A stretch of DNA of 64,000 bases. It comes from Pantoea eucrina. GTDB taxonomy: Bacteria; Pseudomonadota; Gammaproteobacteria; Enterobacterales; Enterobacteriaceae. The DNA lies in assembly GCF_001691555.1 (NCBI RefSeq), contig NZ_MAYN01000008.1, positions 1,072,617 through 1,136,616 of the forward strand, given 5' to 3'. A model generated the notes under the pieces. It had not been told where the DNA came from and searched no databases. It saw only the letters and a program-made list of their open reading frames with translations. Numbering within the stretch: position 1 is the stretch's first letter; the number at the start of each line of letters is the position of its first letter. Both the position numbers and the translations under genes were made by a program. Below, piece by piece: positions 14,647 to 21,802 of the stretch.

Positions 14647-15039
14647 TTAGAAGGGGATATCGGTATCGTAATCAGGTGCGGTAGATTGACCACGCGGTTG
14701 CTGCTGACCGGATGGCGCTGGGTTTCCCTGCCGCGGCGGCAGGTCGATATCTCTCACCAGAATGGTAGGAATTGAGGCTTTGCTGCCGTCATTCTTATCC
14801 CACTCCTCAATCAGAAACTCACCGGTTACCGTTACCTTTGCGCCCTTAGTAACGGCCTGCGAAAGCTTTTCAGCCATGGCACCGAACATTTTGCACTGCA
14901 GCCAAGAGGTTTTTTCGTTGTCTCCGAACCCTGATTTAGCCGGCAGGGAGAAAGTGGCAATGTGCTTCCCATTAGGGGTGACGCGCACAACCGCGTCTTT
15001 ACCCACGTTGCCGGAGATTGTGATCACGTTAATTGGCAT
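14647..15039 (-). CDS. ssb: Phage single-stranded DNA-binding protein
   Basis: 130 residues, OB-fold. MPINVITISGNVGKDAVVRVTPNGKHIATFSLP starts the domain; the C-terminus is a Gln/Pro-rich linker ending in DYDTDIPF, the acidic tip that recruits partner proteins. The start overlaps the ERF stop (TAATG). It should work with the ERF annealing protein in phage recombination. Confidence 0.95.
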   Translation of the reverse strand: MPINVITISGNVGKDAVVRVTPNGKHIATFSLPAKSGFGDNEKTSWLQCKMFGAMAEKLSQAVTKGAKVTVTGEFLIEEWDKNDGSKASIPTILVRDIDLPPRQGNPAPSGQQQPRGQSTAPDYDTDIPF

Positions 15040-15662
15040 TATGCTGATGCTCCTTCAAGCTCTGATTTTCTTATGTCGTAGACTTCCTTCGCCTTAGCCT
15101 GCTCAGGCGTTCCTGCCAGCATCTGCCATGCTTTTGAGAATGCCTGTTTCAGCTCTTCCGGAGTGTTCTTCTGCAGCGCCGCCTCTGTGAAAGCTGCCAG
15201 AGTAGCGGCGGGCGTTGGTTTATTTTTCTGCTTCTGTTGTGGCTTCTGCTGCTGAGGTGCAGACGCTGATTGCTGCCGGTGCTCGTTCGTATCAGCATCC
15301 TTTGAGTCATCAATGCCAAACAGGCCATTCAGGCAGTATTTGCGGGCGTAAGAGCTGGTAGCACCGGTTATCTGGGCATCATCCATGCCTTTCTTCTCGC
15401 TCGCCTCACGGGCCATTGCAGAAGCACTGTGCGATGACTCGCCGTCCGTAATGGTTGCTGTCGCTTTCACGTAGTAGCGATCGCCAATCATTACAATTTC
15501 GTCACTAATGGACAGGAACAGGCCCTTAAGCAGCGGCTTAACCCCTTCGAGGATGTCTTCACAGCTGCGGTAGTGGTATTTACCGAAGTTGTTGTACTGG
15601 CCTTTTGGAGCATTCAGCGTGCTCTGTATCTCTGTCAGGCGGGCATAAAACTCCTTACTCAT
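15039..15662 (-). CDS. erf: ERF-family single-strand annealing recombinase
   Basis: 207 residues from ATG 15662, preceded by GGGAGGATGCC. The ERF domain includes FYARLTEIQSTLNAPKGQYNNFGKYHYRS, GDRYYVKATATITDG and ATSSYARKYCLNGLFGIDD. A Gln-rich linker (residues about 140-165) and a helical C-terminal tail follow. Such proteins anneal complementary strands and help circularise phage DNA. Gene order ERF then SSB is common in lambdoid pL operons. Confidence 0.92.
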   Translation of the reverse strand: MSKEFYARLTEIQSTLNAPKGQYNNFGKYHYRSCEDILEGVKPLLKGLFLSISDEIVMIGDRYYVKATATITDGESSHSASAMAREASEKKGMDDAQITGATSSYARKYCLNGLFGIDDSKDADTNEHRQQSASAPQQQKPQQKQKNKPTPAATLAAFTEAALQKNTPEELKQAFSKAWQMLAGTPEQAKAKEVYDIRKSELEGASA

Positions 15663-15807
15663 GGCATCCTCCCATTGCTTCAAACTGGCGCTCCGTGCGG
15701 AAATCAGCAATCGCTTCCTGCGCTGCCTGCTCATAGGTCATCGGGTCTGCCAGTTCGCCCAGCATGCCCTGCATAAAGTCGCCCCAAACGTCATCGTCAT
15801 GCTGCAT
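15655..15807 (-). CDS. Small acidic phage protein (50 aa) upstream of erf
   Basis: 50 codons from ATG 15807: MQHDDDVWGDFMQGMLGELA, then PMTYEQAAQEAIADFRTERQ and a short tail. It overlaps the end of the 15797 gene by 11 bases and its stop lies just inside the erf start, so it is coupled to both. GTGAAAGCAA in front gives a weak ribosome site. No family recognised. Confidence 0.6.
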   Translation of the reverse strand: MQHDDDVWGDFMQGMLGELADPMTYEQAAQEAIADFRTERQFEAMGGCHE

Positions 15808-17150: not shown

Positions 17151-17468
17151 TCACCTCGCCGTTACGTTGTCTTTAGATTTGCGATAGCCAGCACTGAAGA
17201 TGGCTACCTGTGGTAAGCACATCGCTGAATCAACATCGGTGCCTATGTATTTCGCAGCGCCGGCCAGAATCTGTTTGTGATACTCAGTTTCGGTATCGAC
17301 TGCTTTAACTACCCGGTCAGTTACAGGCCGCTTGCACTGGAGTACAACGCGGCTTGGAGTGGGGCGGTGCATTACTTCTGCGTTTACGCTGACTTCACTC
17401 TGAAGGTGAGCTCGACGTTCGCGACGGCGGCCAGATGCTGAACCAGTGAATTGAGTTCTGCGTGTCAT
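17151..17468 (-). CDS. N: N-like transcription antitermination protein
   Basis: 105 residues, first gene of the leftward operon. The arginine-rich motif GRRRERRAHLQ (residues about 13-23) closely resembles lambda N RRRERRAEKQ, which binds boxB RNA, and ETEYHKQI near residue 60 matches lambda N AEYHKQI. The basic C-terminus (YRKSKDNVTAR) is also N-like. A boxA/boxB nut site lies in its own leader (17536-17580) and a matching one lies after cro. AGGAGG precedes the ATG. It should let polymerase read through the terminators at 16949, 16157 and 12062. Confidence 0.85.
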   Translation of the reverse strand: MTRRTQFTGSASGRRRERRAHLQSEVSVNAEVMHRPTPSRVVLQCKRPVTDRVVKAVDTETEYHKQILAGAAKYIGTDVDSAMCLPQVAIFSAGYRKSKDNVTAR

Positions 17469-17621: not shown

Positions 17622-17692
17622 TGAATATACACAATATGTGATTTTATAGTCAATCACAAATCGTGTATGATCTTGCATGTACACATTATGTG
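17622..17692 (-). promoter_or_regulatory. pL promoter with three OL repressor sites
   Basis: Three copies of an 11-bp CAC-N5-GTG element: CACAATATGTG (17630-17640), CACAAATCGTG (17655-17665), CACATTATGTG (17682-17692), centres 25 and 27 bp apart. On the minus strand TTGACT (17646-17651) and TATATT 18 bases on form the promoter, with the first site in the spacer and the second abutting the -35. Confidence 0.85.
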
Positions 17693-17727: not shown

Positions 17728-17752
17728 AAAAAAGCCCGCTCAGTGGCGGGCT
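17728..17752 (-). terminator. Terminator of the cI-hipA-like-DUF3037 transcript
   Basis: Minus strand AGCCCGC / CACTGA / GCGGGCT followed by six T. It lies between the DUF3037 gene and OL, so the immunity transcript stops before pL. Confidence 0.9.
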
Positions 17753-17817
17753 ATTGGCAGTGCAGGTATAAGAAACCCAGCGCGACAGCTAGGGTATATG
17801 CATTTAATTGAAAATAT

Positions 17818-18636
17818 TTAGTGGGTAGGCATGCTCTTACCAGCGGCATTAAGCATATGCTCAAAGTAACTCGACATGTCGCTGCTGGATAAAAGGTTAT
17901 ACATCTTGTCAGAGTAACCGTGGATCAAGTTCAACTGCTGCGTGTAGGTGCGCTCTTGAGATGCCTCTGCAGCATAAACAAGAAACGTGTTAACATCTTC
18001 TTGCCAGATAGTCTTGGCAGTGTTCATTGTTATTGCCTTCACCGCAGTATCTCCAAGCTTTTGCTTAAGGTTAGAGCTTCTGAAGTCGAGAGTTTCGGTT
18101 AAGTGATAGATTCCATTTTTTAGGAGAAGCTCGGCATAGAGGCCTTCAGCCTCAGACAAAGGGTAGCCCTGAACAACCTTATGATCATGAATCTCATTCA
18201 CGTTTTTCCCTAAAATCCCAAACCGCTCAAATTCATCCTTCAACTCTGTGATAATTCTTTTTTGAGTGACTGGAAGCCTTTTTCCTGATCTAATAGGAGA
18301 GATGTACATCTTATTGATTTTAATGATTTCATTATCATATTCTTCCTTCGAATTGGCTGTAAAAGTACCAATTGAAGATAATGTAATGCTCCCTTGAAAA
18401 AAGGCTACAGCTTGTTCCAATGTTAGGCACGAAAGCATTTTATCAAGCTGATCTTTAAGCTCTCCCAGCTGCTCCATTGAATAATCATTAGTCAGTGCTT
18501 TGATTTTGGTATGTGACTCAAGCACTCGGATATCAGCAACACCTTCTGATGATGTGACAGCAAATCCGACATTGATAGACTCTGCTCTGACAGGATTAGG
18601 TGTTATCCTGATCACACTGTATTTATAACATGTCAT
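17818..18636 (-). CDS. DUF3037 family protein, partner of the HipA-like kinase
   Basis: 272 residues. The start MTCYKYSVIRITPNPVRAES followed by NVGFAV matches the DUF3037 signature (YSVIR..P...R.E..NVG). The rest is helical and lacks membrane segments. ATG overlaps the stop of the HipA-like gene by 4 bases, so the two are translated together, and a terminator follows. I recall that DUF3037 genes are commonly adjacent to HipA-like kinase genes; the joint function is not established. It sits where lambda carries rexB. Confidence 0.82.
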   Translation of the reverse strand: MTCYKYSVIRITPNPVRAESINVGFAVTSSEGVADIRVLESHTKIKALTNDYSMEQLGELKDQLDKMLSCLTLEQAVAFFQGSITLSSIGTFTANSKEEYDNEIIKINKMYISPIRSGKRLPVTQKRIITELKDEFERFGILGKNVNEIHDHKVVQGYPLSEAEGLYAELLLKNGIYHLTETLDFRSSNLKQKLGDTAVKAITMNTAKTIWQEDVNTFLVYAAEASQERTYTQQLNLIHGYSDKMYNLLSSSDMSSYFEHMLNAAGKSMPTH

Positions 18637-19457
18637 TTTAACACCTCCTGTCTTACCGAGCTTAATCGCTCATTTTTGCCAGAACCTGCCCACCAAGTGG
18701 TAAGAGCCTCACGATGCAATGGGTTAATCCAACTACCCGGCATCTCTAGGAAAATTCTATCGATATCATCAACATTTATCTTGCTCATGTTATCGATTAT
18801 TTTCACTGCGGACTCACGGCATGTCGAATCAGTGTACGTCATAGCCTTGATAGAGTTCCAGTTATTAGTCGTGTTGTATCCTAAAGGCATGAGACTGCTT
18901 CCAACCTTGTTTGGCCAACCCATAACCATCGCCGCCAAGCTAAAATCGAAAGCTTGAACTGTAATGTCGCCATTTCGATTTTTCGTGTAAAGGTAATTAC
19001 CAAGGTGCCTATCAATGTTGTATACAAATTGGTCGAAAGCATAGATTGCCCATACTTGCTTTCTTAAGATAGAAGATGATGACATCAAAGCTGAGGCGAA
19101 GTTGATCGCGTCTTGTGGCTTAGACAATGCGGCAAGATCGTAGCGAGAACCAAAAAAATGCTGGTCAGTGGCTTTGTCATAAATCACACGACAAATAGGG
19201 GTCGGCAGACCACACATTTCACCCAATCGAGTACATAGCCATTCAGATGCTGGTATTTGCCGTGGGTTAGGAAGCCCCTTCAGGTCAGAGGTTTCACCAT
19301 CAAATACGCTTTTAACTGCATATTCTAAACCATCAGATGCAATGACAGTATTCTTCAGATGCGCTGTACCACCAAGTACAGGCCGCATAGACTCAACCTC
19401 AAGTGACAACAGAGGTTCTTGAATTGTCATATCATTGAGTTCACTCTCATCGCTCAT
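18633..19457 (-). CDS. HipA-like Ser/Thr kinase-fold protein
   Basis: 274 residues, of the short HipA-like family that pairs with DUF3037, not the 440-residue HipA toxin. Kinase elements visible: Gly-rich LGGTAHLKN (about 28-36), Lys49 in EYAVKSV, catalytic-loop NIDRHLGNYL (Asp149, Asn154) and metal-binding AFDFS (Asp171). All key residues appear intact, so it could be active. No HTH antitoxin HipB is next to it; its neighbours are DUF3037 downstream and cI 92 bases upstream. Lower GC than the late genes. Likely expressed in the lysogen. Confidence 0.82.
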   Translation of the reverse strand: MSDESELNDMTIQEPLLSLEVESMRPVLGGTAHLKNTVIASDGLEYAVKSVFDGETSDLKGLPNPRQIPASEWLCTRLGEMCGLPTPICRVIYDKATDQHFFGSRYDLAALSKPQDAINFASALMSSSSILRKQVWAIYAFDQFVYNIDRHLGNYLYTKNRNGDITVQAFDFSLAAMVMGWPNKVGSSLMPLGYNTTNNWNSIKAMTYTDSTCRESAVKIIDNMSKINVDDIDRIFLEMPGSWINPLHREALTTWWAGSGKNERLSSVRQEVLK

Positions 19458-19549: not shown

Positions 19550-20197
19550 TTATTCAAACGTCTCTTCCGGCCACTGAGCCTTAACTACCTTACCGATAAT
19601 GCGGATGCTGTGATCGCAGTCGATAATCCTGTAAGCAGGGTTGAGTGGTACCAGATAGCTCACGCCACCGTCTAACTCGTACTTCTTGAAGGTTGCTTCT
19701 GAGTCAGCATTCGCAGAGGCAACGCAGAAATCGCCTGTCTCAACCGGTTCTGCTGGGTCAATCAGAATAAGCATTCCTTCCGGAAAGCTCGGACGCACAC
19801 CCTGTGGTGCAGTCATGGAGTGACCTTTTACCTCAAGCCAGAAAGCTTTCTCGCTGGCTTTACGGGTAGTGGCTACCCATGCCTTCGCATCACTTGCTGT
19901 ATAGCTGCTTACCTCAGAGAACGGGCCGGCCTGCACATGAGAGAACAGGGGGTAGTCATACTGTTTGAAGACAGCGTCAGCATCTTCTCCAAACATTATC
20001 TTTGCCGGCGAAACGCCTAATGCCGCTCCTAATATCACTGCATCATCTGCACTGACTTTTCTTGCACCCAGTTCATAATTCCCTAGGCGTGACGGCGCTG
20101 CCCAGCCACAAAGCTTGGCGAGCTGTACTTGGCTAAGTCCTTTAGCTTCACGTAGGGACTTAATCCTTTCCCCGATCACTTCATGCATAGTTTTCAT
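19550..20197 (-). CDS. cI: CI-like phage repressor with S24 autoprotease domain
   Basis: 215 residues. N-terminal HTH ([20 protein letters not shown], about 20-39), a linker, then the LexA/CI peptidase: Ala90-Gly91 in HVQAGPF as the likely cleavage site, Ser127 in GHSM and Lys171/172 in ATFKKYEL as the catalytic pair. RecA-stimulated self-cleavage in response to DNA damage is therefore expected. It is divergent from cro, with OR in between, and its first operator lies between its start and OR2. Confidence 0.93.
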
Positions 20198-20210: not shown

Positions 20211-20275
20211 CACGATACGTGATTACACTATGTACACGAATTGAGGTTGACTGTTAATCACATTTTGTGTGTAAT
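20211..20275. promoter_or_regulatory. OR region: three repressor sites, pR promoter
   Basis: CACGATACGTG (20211-20221), CACGAATTGAG (20235-20245, one mismatch) and CACATTTTGTG (20259-20269), centres exactly 24 bp apart. pR on the plus strand: TTGACT (20247-20252), 17 bp, TGTAAT (20270-20275), so the third site covers the pR spacer. pRM would read left; its -10 may be TAGATT (20204-20209). Confidence 0.85.
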
Positions 20276-20648: not shown

Positions 20649-20681
20649 ATTATCCAACATGAGTTCAGCAAACTACAGCAA
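20649..20681 (-). promoter_or_regulatory. pRE-type promoter with CII recognition repeat
   Basis: On the minus strand TTGC-TGTAGT-TTGC (20668-20681), exactly the TTGC-N6-TTGC sequence bound by CII, followed 13 bases later by GATAAT (20649-20654). It overlaps the first codons of cII and reads leftward over cro (antisense) to cI, as lambda pRE does. Confidence 0.85.
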
Positions 20682-20940
20682 ACCAACCGAGAACGAGATC
20701 AACAGAACGCAGACAGATCTCCTTCTCGCAGTTTCACAGATGACCGGGCGAGAGTTCGCTAAAGGTGTTGGTTGCCATGAGTCGAAGATTAGTCGTGCCG
20801 ACTGGCGCTTTATAGCTGCCGTCATTTGCACGGCAAGGATGGCATGGGAAGTAAGCCCGATGGGACGTTTAGTGCAGGAAACCATTGAGGCTATTAGCGG
20901 AAAAGAAAAAGCCCCAAACGCTGGAACGTTTGAGGCCTGA
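20659..20940 (+). CDS. cII: CII-like transcriptional activator
   Basis: 93 residues of the CII family: NRTQTDLLLAVSQMTGREFA followed by KGVGCHESKISRADWRFI, matching the CII HTH with GVDKSQISRWKRDW, and a C-terminal oligomerisation helix. It should activate pRE at its own 5' end to make repressor early in lysogeny. Located between nutR and the replication genes. Confidence 0.9.
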   Translation: MSSANYSKPTENEINRTQTDLLLAVSQMTGREFAKGVGCHESKISRADWRFIAAVICTARMAWEVSPMGRLVQETIEAISGKEKAPNAGTFEA

Positions 20941-20974: not shown

Positions 20975-21802
20975 ATGAGTAGTTTATCACTGTATTACAA
21001 GGGCAAAGAGAAGAACGGCACGGATACCACGGTGCGTAAAACGTTCCTGGTTCCGCTGTCAGAGCTGTATGTCGAGCCAGGCTATAACGTTCGTGATATC
21101 GATCAGCAGCACGTCGAGGAGTTTCGCGACGCATTTATTGCCGGCGAGTTTGTGCCGCCTCTCGCAGTGCAGGTGACAGGCGATCGGGTCAAAATCATCG
21201 ACGGTCATCACCGCTATCACGGTGCCCAGATGGCTACCCAAGCCGGTCACGAAATTGCCCGTCTTGAATGCAAAGACTTTACCGGTACCGAGGCCGATCG
21301 CATCGCATTCATGGTTACCAGCAGTCAGGGTAAACCGCTCACTGCGCTTGAACGTGCAGCAGCTTATCAGCGCCTGTCTAATCAGGGATGGTCAGTAAGC
21401 GAAATCGCCAGCAAGGTTAAGCGCTCTGTCGCTGATGTTGATCACCATCTCCAGCTGCTGACGTGTGGCGATGAGCTGATAGCTATGGTCAAAACCGGCG
21501 AGGTAGCAGCAACGACCGCTGTCGCGCTGGCACGTGAGCACGGTGCCAACGCTGCCGCTATTGCAACTGAGCAGATGGGTAAGGCTAAGGCCGCTGGTAA
21601 GAAAAAGCTTTCGCGCAGTGCAGCAATCCCGCTGTTCAGTGCTGCTAAAGCCCGTCGCTTGGCTGAACTGCTGGTAGGTGCAGAGATGTCCGGAGAAGCC
21701 GGTAATAAACATCTGGTGCTGGCAGAAGGAACGGCAGAGGAGGTAAGGCAGATTATTGCTGACTATCGCGCCGGAGCGCCCGGCAGGTGGGAGGAGTCAT
21801 GA
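20975..21802 (+). CDS. ParB/Srx-domain phage protein
   Basis: 275 residues. ParB-like N-terminal nuclease fold: VEPGYNVRDIDQQHVEEFRD, VKIIDGHHRYHGAQMA (GxHR-type motif) and SSQGKPLTALERAAAY, followed by an HTH at GWSVSEIASKVKRSVADVDH. No ParA is present, so it is not a partition pair. Located between cII and the O gene; overlaps the latter by 4 bases. In some lambdoid phages such genes occur in this place; a role in replication or regulation is inferred only. Confidence 0.85.
   Translation: MSSLSLYYKGKEKNGTDTTVRKTFLVPLSELYVEPGYNVRDIDQQHVEEFRDAFIAGEFVPPLAVQVTGDRVKIIDGHHRYHGAQMATQAGHEIARLECKDFTGTEADRIAFMVTSSQGKPLTALERAAAYQRLSNQGWSVSEIASKVKRSVADVDHHLQLLTCGDELIAMVKTGEVAATTAVALAREHGANAAAIATEQMGKAKAAGKKKLSRSAAIPLFSAAKARRLAELLVGAEMSGEAGNKHLVLAEGTAEEVRQIIADYRAGAPGRWEES

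Follow-up and report, generated by a model that had tools for sequence, protein, structure and literature searches.

Two coupled genes were found on the minus strand of the window (the whole stretch of DNA analyzed here, 64,000 nucleotides), inside an immunity region. The first gene (18633..19457, minus strand) is an open reading frame of 274 amino acids and encodes a HipA-like kinase, the probable toxin of a HipAD-type pair. The second gene (17818..18636, minus strand) encodes a DUF3037 protein of 272 amino acids, which is probably a HipD-like antitoxin. The genes share the four bases ATGA at 18633..18636 on the minus strand, which bears out the coupling proposed in the first-pass annotation. 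A Shine-Dalgarno-like sequence, AGGAGGT, lies immediately 5' of the DUF3037 start. In Pfam searches, the kinase matched PF20613 (HipA_2) with 29.3 bits against a cut-off of 27, and PF07804 (HipA_C) with 29.3 bits, under the family cut-off of 30.5. The partner matched PF11236 (DUF3037) with 30.9 bits (cut-off 22.6), residues 6-68 alone being aligned.

The cI repressor gene (19550..20197, minus strand; HTH and Peptidase_S24 domains in Pfam) is located 5' of the pair in the same direction, with a gap of 92 bases to the kinase gene. A hairpin scan revealed two terminator-like hairpins on the minus strand 3' of the DUF3037 stop, one at 17776..17793 and one, followed by a T run, at 17733..17752. The same scan detected no terminator-like hairpin on the minus strand from cI to the end of the DUF3037 gene. 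It returned 12 sites in 6 kb where 5.6 were expected, so that a single hairpin is weak evidence. Beyond the hairpins, an OL-like region (17629..17666) with two operator-like palindromes (17629-17642 and 17653-17666) was found in a pattern scan. Among the genes identified, the next one on the minus strand past this region encodes the antitermination protein N (17151..17468; PF25694, 88 bits). An OR-like operator palindrome was located at 20257..20270, between cI and cro. The operator-like pattern, which was composed after inspecting the very sites it matches, occurs three times in 64 kb where 0.47 matches were expected, always within the two control regions, and three of 100-odd shuffled sequences also attained three matches. 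At the start of cII (20659..20940, plus strand; PF05269) a CII-site-like TTGCN6TTGC motif is found (20668..20681, minus strand), positioned as for pRE. This motif occurs six times in the window against 6.1 expected, and only its position favors the site at cII. In mEpX1, a putative CII site is annotated likewise at the start of cII.

The pair was said to occupy the rex position, and this is where we found it, after cI and ahead of the terminator-like hairpin, the OL-like operators and N. In phage lambda, rexAB lie downstream of cI, before the terminator and OL/N. The slot is common to both, and in the window a kinase toxin-antitoxin pair replaces the Rex proteins; no sequence relation to these is claimed. 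Because of this position, and since no terminator-like site intervenes, expression of the pair together with cI in the lysogen is plausible.

The kinase residues pointed out earlier (Lys49, Asp149, Asn154 and Asp171) are present in the window kinase. Together with Glu72 they are invariant in all 24 aligned kinases, and the window kinase is intact. The AF2 model of the kinase had a pLDDT of 86.8 and a pTM of 0.87. Its top fold match was CtkA (Z 15.3, rmsd 3.9, 227 aligned), followed by type II phosphatidylinositol 4-kinases (Z up to 14.8) and CotH. HipA itself (3tpb) was matched with Z 11.8 (rmsd 4.2, 214 aligned) and HipT with Z 11.5 (212 aligned). A sequence search against solved structures gave four weak rows for the kinase, again with CtkA as the best (E 0.006). 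In a viral structure library 20 rows were obtained at E up to 0.001, many of them labelled as kinases or large phage proteins.

Conservation of the pair was assessed against its counterpart on a Rahnella plasmid. Synonymous sites were saturated in both genes (pS 0.83), and pN was 0.105 for the kinase gene and 0.107 for the DUF3037 gene. Judged by these values, both genes are under purifying selection, and the combination of saturated pS and low pN indicates that the pair is more than a chance arrangement. A chance match to DUF3037 was also considered; it is ruled out by the purifying selection together with the profile match to HipD-type proteins described below (E 1.1e-7). The window pair is a real, intact and conserved module.

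Pairs of this kind have been published. In PMC12548924, a HipA-DUF3037 module within Retron-Sda1 is described as a stand-alone toxin-antitoxin defence against Bas51, with the RT and ncRNA being dispensable. Deletion of HipA abolishes the Bas51 defence and deletion of DUF3037 is toxic, and the PADLOC name of the module is given as PDC-M66 (PMC12548924). According to PMC13092281, the DefensePredictor system DS-6 was renamed HipAD, a DS-6A kinase mutant was without defence, and binding of DS-6A to DS-6B is predicted by AlphaFold3. Phage PhiR5_1 (PV340545.1) carries, in this order, cI, 'HipA toxin', 'HipD antitoxin', and then Kil, Gam, Bet and exonuclease. That these genes are the published HipAD is taken from the gene names in the record. 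Locus L111, already part of our profiles, encodes the same two proteins (100% identity).

The window pair resembles HipAD in that a HipA-family kinase lacking HipB is followed by an overlapping DUF3037 gene, and it shares with hipA-hipD of PhiR5_1 a lambdoid location bounded by cI on one side and the left early genes on the other. In sequence the two are far apart, since the window kinase is 25% and the DUF3037 protein 23% identical to their PhiR5_1 counterparts, and the kinases measure 274 and 249 amino acids. At the level of profiles the relationship was detected. The kinase profile matched the profile including PhiR5_1 HipA with E 1.2e-13. In hhalign, the DUF3037 protein matched the HipD-type profile with E 1.1e-7 (probability 94%, columns 4-139), and the N-domains alone gave 7e-8. 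Of the features of HipAD, a complete catalytic kinase, an overlapping DUF3037 gene downstream and an N-domain homologous to that of HipD were found in the window. The first-pass annotation had considered the pair a candidate for an undescribed system. This has to be withdrawn, as HipAD, DS-6 and PDC-M66 are published and PhiR5_1 has such a pair in the equivalent slot. The kind is already described; the novelty lies in the branch, which is divergent and whose antitoxin has a C-domain of its own. No paper or experiment in the openly licensed literature searched was traceable to the window branch. One further pair, L120:598-2277, consists of a kinase and a DUF3037 protein and matches both branches (E 1e-5 or better, two-sequence search); it is possibly an intermediate between the window and HipAD branches.

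Other known systems were compared as well. The PDC-M66 module of Retron-Sda1 has the same two domains, but the PADLOC models match the window only weakly (PDC-M66B, E 0.00035 over residues 1-68; PDC-M66A, E 0.015). On ten members including the window, and at E up to 1, the B model matched nine (best 6.8e-9) and the A model all ten (best 1e-4). In contrast to Retron-Sda1, reading of the open reading frames showed no retron genes next to the window pair. The PDC-M03A models performed slightly better on the window kinase than PDC-M66A, with a best E of 0.0015. HipBA shares the HipA kinase fold; however, the window kinase is short (274 amino acids) and no HipA N-terminal family was matched in Pfam. 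A HipB-type HTH antitoxin is absent: no HTH family was found in the DUF3037 partner with Pfam, and cI is the sole HTH gene beside the kinase. The earlier statement that there is no HipB antitoxin is therefore literally true, but it does not mean that an antitoxin is missing, as the published sources give this role to the DUF3037 protein itself. Of the three roles suggested for DUF3037, namely partner, substrate or regulator of the kinase, partner and regulator are the ones supported.

The DUF3037 protein has two domains, an N-domain of about residues 1-125 (DUF3037) and a C-domain of about residues 126-272 with a predicted PD-(D/E)XK-like fold. Its model had a pLDDT of 90.6 and a pTM of 0.56, and the relative placement of the domains is uncertain accordingly. 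The fold-search matches concern the C-domain, and the N-domain was barely probed by that search. With residues 118-268, the best matches were the PD-(D/E)XK nucleases BsoBI (1dc1_B; Z 9.7, rmsd 3.9, 132 aligned) and PspGI (3bm3_B; Z 9.7, rmsd 3.6, 127 aligned). Lower rows contained Can2, Cdn1, Card1 and XPF, interspersed with GTPases and response regulators. With Foldseek alone, the DUF3037 model had no match at E up to 0.001, and the best row was an endonuclease at 0.0043. The sequence search against solved structures returned two rows at E 0.3, which were taken as chance. Six rows at E up to 0.001 from the viral structure library were mostly without names and have no bearing on function. In an alignment of 29 sequences, position 169 is D in 17 and E in 12, while E181, H152, K173, H178 and D184 are each found in 29/29. 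Placement of the nuclease motif on these residues, including the adjacency of 169 and 181, follows the predicted hairpin geometry. At position 183, where the lysine of the PD-(D/E)XK motif usually stands, all 29 sequences carry L, I or V. Hence the predicted model has the PD-(D/E)XK core fold but not the lysine of the (D/E)xK motif. Because the canonical lysine is absent, the C-domain is most likely a binding domain for nucleic acid or a trigger, and not a cutting enzyme.

Between the C-domains of the window branch and the HipD branch no relation was detectable (E 0.059, probability 0.9%), and the C-domain of the window branch would thus be either a different domain or a very diverged one. In PMC13092281 the C-terminal domain of DS-6B is called DUF1829. 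We did not find this Pfam family in ten members of the window branch, nor in eight of the HipD branch, and the label was thus not reproduced. DUF1829 exceeded the cut-off in 3/299 genomes of the window's phylum and in 0/149 from its family. The C-domain of the window branch did not match a weak DUF1829 profile built from two of the phylum proteins either (E 0.36).

Association of the two genes was tested by profile scans of viral contigs, which yielded 48 loci via DUF3037 and, separately, 32 via the kinase, many contigs being common to both. An adjacent partner in the same order was present at 46/48 loci found by DUF3037 and at 32/32 found by the kinase. This settles the objection that homologues might never be paired. 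A scan of genome contigs with the DUF3037 profile gave three loci, all of them paired and all behind an HTH gene. Among 392 genomes of the window's family, PF11236 matched in 19, and 13 of these were over the cut-off (window included). In all 13, a gene matching PF20613 adjoins, which in two cases is below the PF20613 cut-off. The six matches below the PF11236 cut-off (L122-L127) were dropped, as by reading they resemble H-NS family proteins. In the reverse search, PF20613 was found in 18/392 genomes, comprising the 13 DUF3037 genomes and five without DUF3037 beside the kinase.

Two of these five have another partner of 292 amino acids, overlapped by a HipA_2 kinase gene (L138:1303-3001 and L144:1411-3025). 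The other three are HipA_2-like kinases with no recognizable partner in the stretch read (L137:1423-2307, L139:1321-2205 and L141:1135-1884). The 292-amino-acid protein gave E 0.066 and 0.27 with two DUF3037 profiles, neither being significant. It has an N-terminal motif of similar appearance, ASGERxTxAVAALG, and it is possibly a third type of partner. PDC-M03 and the L138/L144 pairs share with the window the HipA_2 kinase and the overlapping partner downstream, but the L138/L144 partner is not significantly DUF3037. That L138 and L144 are PDC-M03 is a guess.

The exceptions to pairing were inspected individually. At L060, an apparent insertion sequence stands where the kinase would be, and the start of DUF3037 is gone too. 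L092 has lost the central part of its kinase and has an intact DUF3037 gene. These are the two unpaired viral loci. In addition, one of the 13 kinases in family genomes (L117/L135) contains a TAG within the reading frame, with DUF3037 kept. A kinase without its DUF3037 partner was not found among the 32 and 13 kinases of both branches whose neighbors were inspected. If DUF3037 is an antitoxin, loss of the toxin should leave it behind, and its own loss beside a surviving kinase is not expected; L060, L092 and L117/L135 fit this prediction. Three such cases are few, however, and toxins are also often lost by chance.

To characterize the slot, the nearest substantial same-strand gene 5' of each of the 48 viral loci was analyzed. 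A set of 36 proteins, namely 34 such upstream genes, the window cI and that of L107, was searched with Pfam at E up to 0.01. HTH_3 was found in 31 and Peptidase_S24 in 23. The five without HTH_3 are L101, L103 and L106, which have S24, L078, which is a SRAP gene, and L094, which has neither. Fifteen upstream genes were scanned singly (14 from the set of 36, plus L097), and eleven loci were judged by first 50 residues identical or nearly so to those of a scanned gene (L059, L067, L068, L084, L085, L087-L089, L093, L096 and L100). At L061 and L072 no upstream gene of that kind was present; L072 and L094 are near a contig end. In total, an HTH and/or S24 repressor was located upstream in 44/48 viral loci, with an intervening small gene in L090, L092 and L106 and an intervening insertion in L060. 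Four E. coli-related loci were inspected, namely a window-branch pair, a HipAD pair, a partial HipAD match and phage PhiR5_1, and all four lie behind a repressor. The Rahnella plasmid copy has no repressor beside the pair.

Between L069 on one side and L062 and L063 on the other, the kinases share 97% identity and the repressors 28%. As near-identical kinases stand behind unlike repressors, the pair is not bound to any single switch. Conversely, mEpX1 has a repressor with 90% identity to the window cI and holds two other genes in the slot. On these comparisons, the slot is exchanged as a module. The mEpX1 genes (L145:1872-3280) encode a protein of 159 amino acids, nucleotidyltransferase-like by reading, and one of 310 amino acids.

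The window branch has members in prophage-like loci (E. coli, Rosenbergiella, Raoultella and Citrobacter) and in plasmid records (Rahnella, Klebsiella and, at 30% identity, Komagataeibacter). The closest named relative is a pair on the 616-kb Rahnella plasmid pRAHAQ01 (L181:3180-4822), with 82% identity in DUF3037. Of 5426 E. coli genomes, 24 contained DNA similar to the L012 pair, which belongs to the window branch. The HipAD pair matched in 288/5426, of which 283 had a cover of 80% or more. The remaining five matches are partial with 60-80% identity, and the one inspected was a HipA kinase and DUF3037 pair behind a repressor. Among 60 genomes of the window's genus, including its own, a relative of the DUF3037 protein was found in the window's genome alone. 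In a tblastn search (E 1e-5) of 50,697 phage records, from which records near the window were possibly excluded, neither window protein nor the L012 DUF3037 protein had a match. The HipD type gave three matches in the same search.

We interpret the pair as rex-slot cargo that is expressed in the lysogen and forms a toxin-antitoxin defence module of the HipAD type, and give this reading a probability of about 0.82. The gene order, the coupling, the kinase motifs, the pairing, the homology to HipAD, the repressor-side placement and the purifying selection were observed here. Toxicity, neutralization and defence would carry over from the published relatives. The lysogen-expressed defence module that had been proposed before is also the best reading now. 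By analogy, the kinase and DUF3037 genes would be transcribed along with cI from pRM/pRE, and the DUF3037 protein would bind the kinase and hold it inactive. Infection by another phage would lift this inhibition. The freed kinase may then phosphorylate a host factor required for growth, leading to an abortive end of the infection. In E. coli, the target of HipA is glutamyl-tRNA synthetase.

An elaboration of this scheme, which we consider doubtful, is that C-domains are exchanged among the antitoxins of HipAD-like modules. The nuclease-fold domain acquired here would then be a replaceable sensor of phage or replicating DNA and DUF3037 the part that binds the kinase, which would be released upon sensing. 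A still less likely reading turns the roles around, so that the DUF3037 protein is the effector and its PD-(D/E)XK nuclease C-domain is toggled by phosphorylation through the kinase. The matches of the C-domain model to BsoBI and PspGI (Z 9.7 each) fit such an effector, as do the conserved acidic residues E/D169 and E181, neighbors by the inferred hairpin, and the strict conservation of H152, K173, H178 and D184. Yet the place of the lysine, 183, is hydrophobic in 29/29 sequences, and the C-domain of HipD has no sequence relation to that of the window. Furthermore, in the published relative toxicity follows removal of DUF3037 and defence ends when the kinase is removed, which is the opposite of what would be expected of a DUF3037 effector (PMC12548924).

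Equally improbable, in our estimate, is that the pair serves the prophage, by lysogen maintenance, addiction or induction control, and that phage resistance is a by-product. Toxin-antitoxin pairs can stabilize the element that carries them, and the position is of the lysogen type. However, the L069, L062 and L063 kinases with their unlike repressors argue against coupling to a single switch, and cloned relatives do defend (PMC12548924 and PMC13092281). Very improbable is a reading of the window pair as a remnant that has decayed or lost its function. Broken copies exist elsewhere (L060, L092 and L117), but nothing in the window points to decay: the frames are intact, the motifs are complete, and pN is about 0.105 with saturated synonymous sites. 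The HipAD-type defence module thus remains the preferred reading. HipAD would then comprise a second branch besides the one published, with one repressor-side slot serving both. A common kinase and N-domain combined with unlike C-domains also suggests how the antitoxin may be divided between holding the kinase and, possibly, sensing infection.

Two other features of the surrounding prophage were observed. A gene whose product carries a ParB HTH domain (20975-21802; PF17762) lies between cII and the prophage replication gene O, and genes for an ERF-family recombinase and an SSB protein (PF04404 and PF00436) are located at 14647-15734 on the minus strand.
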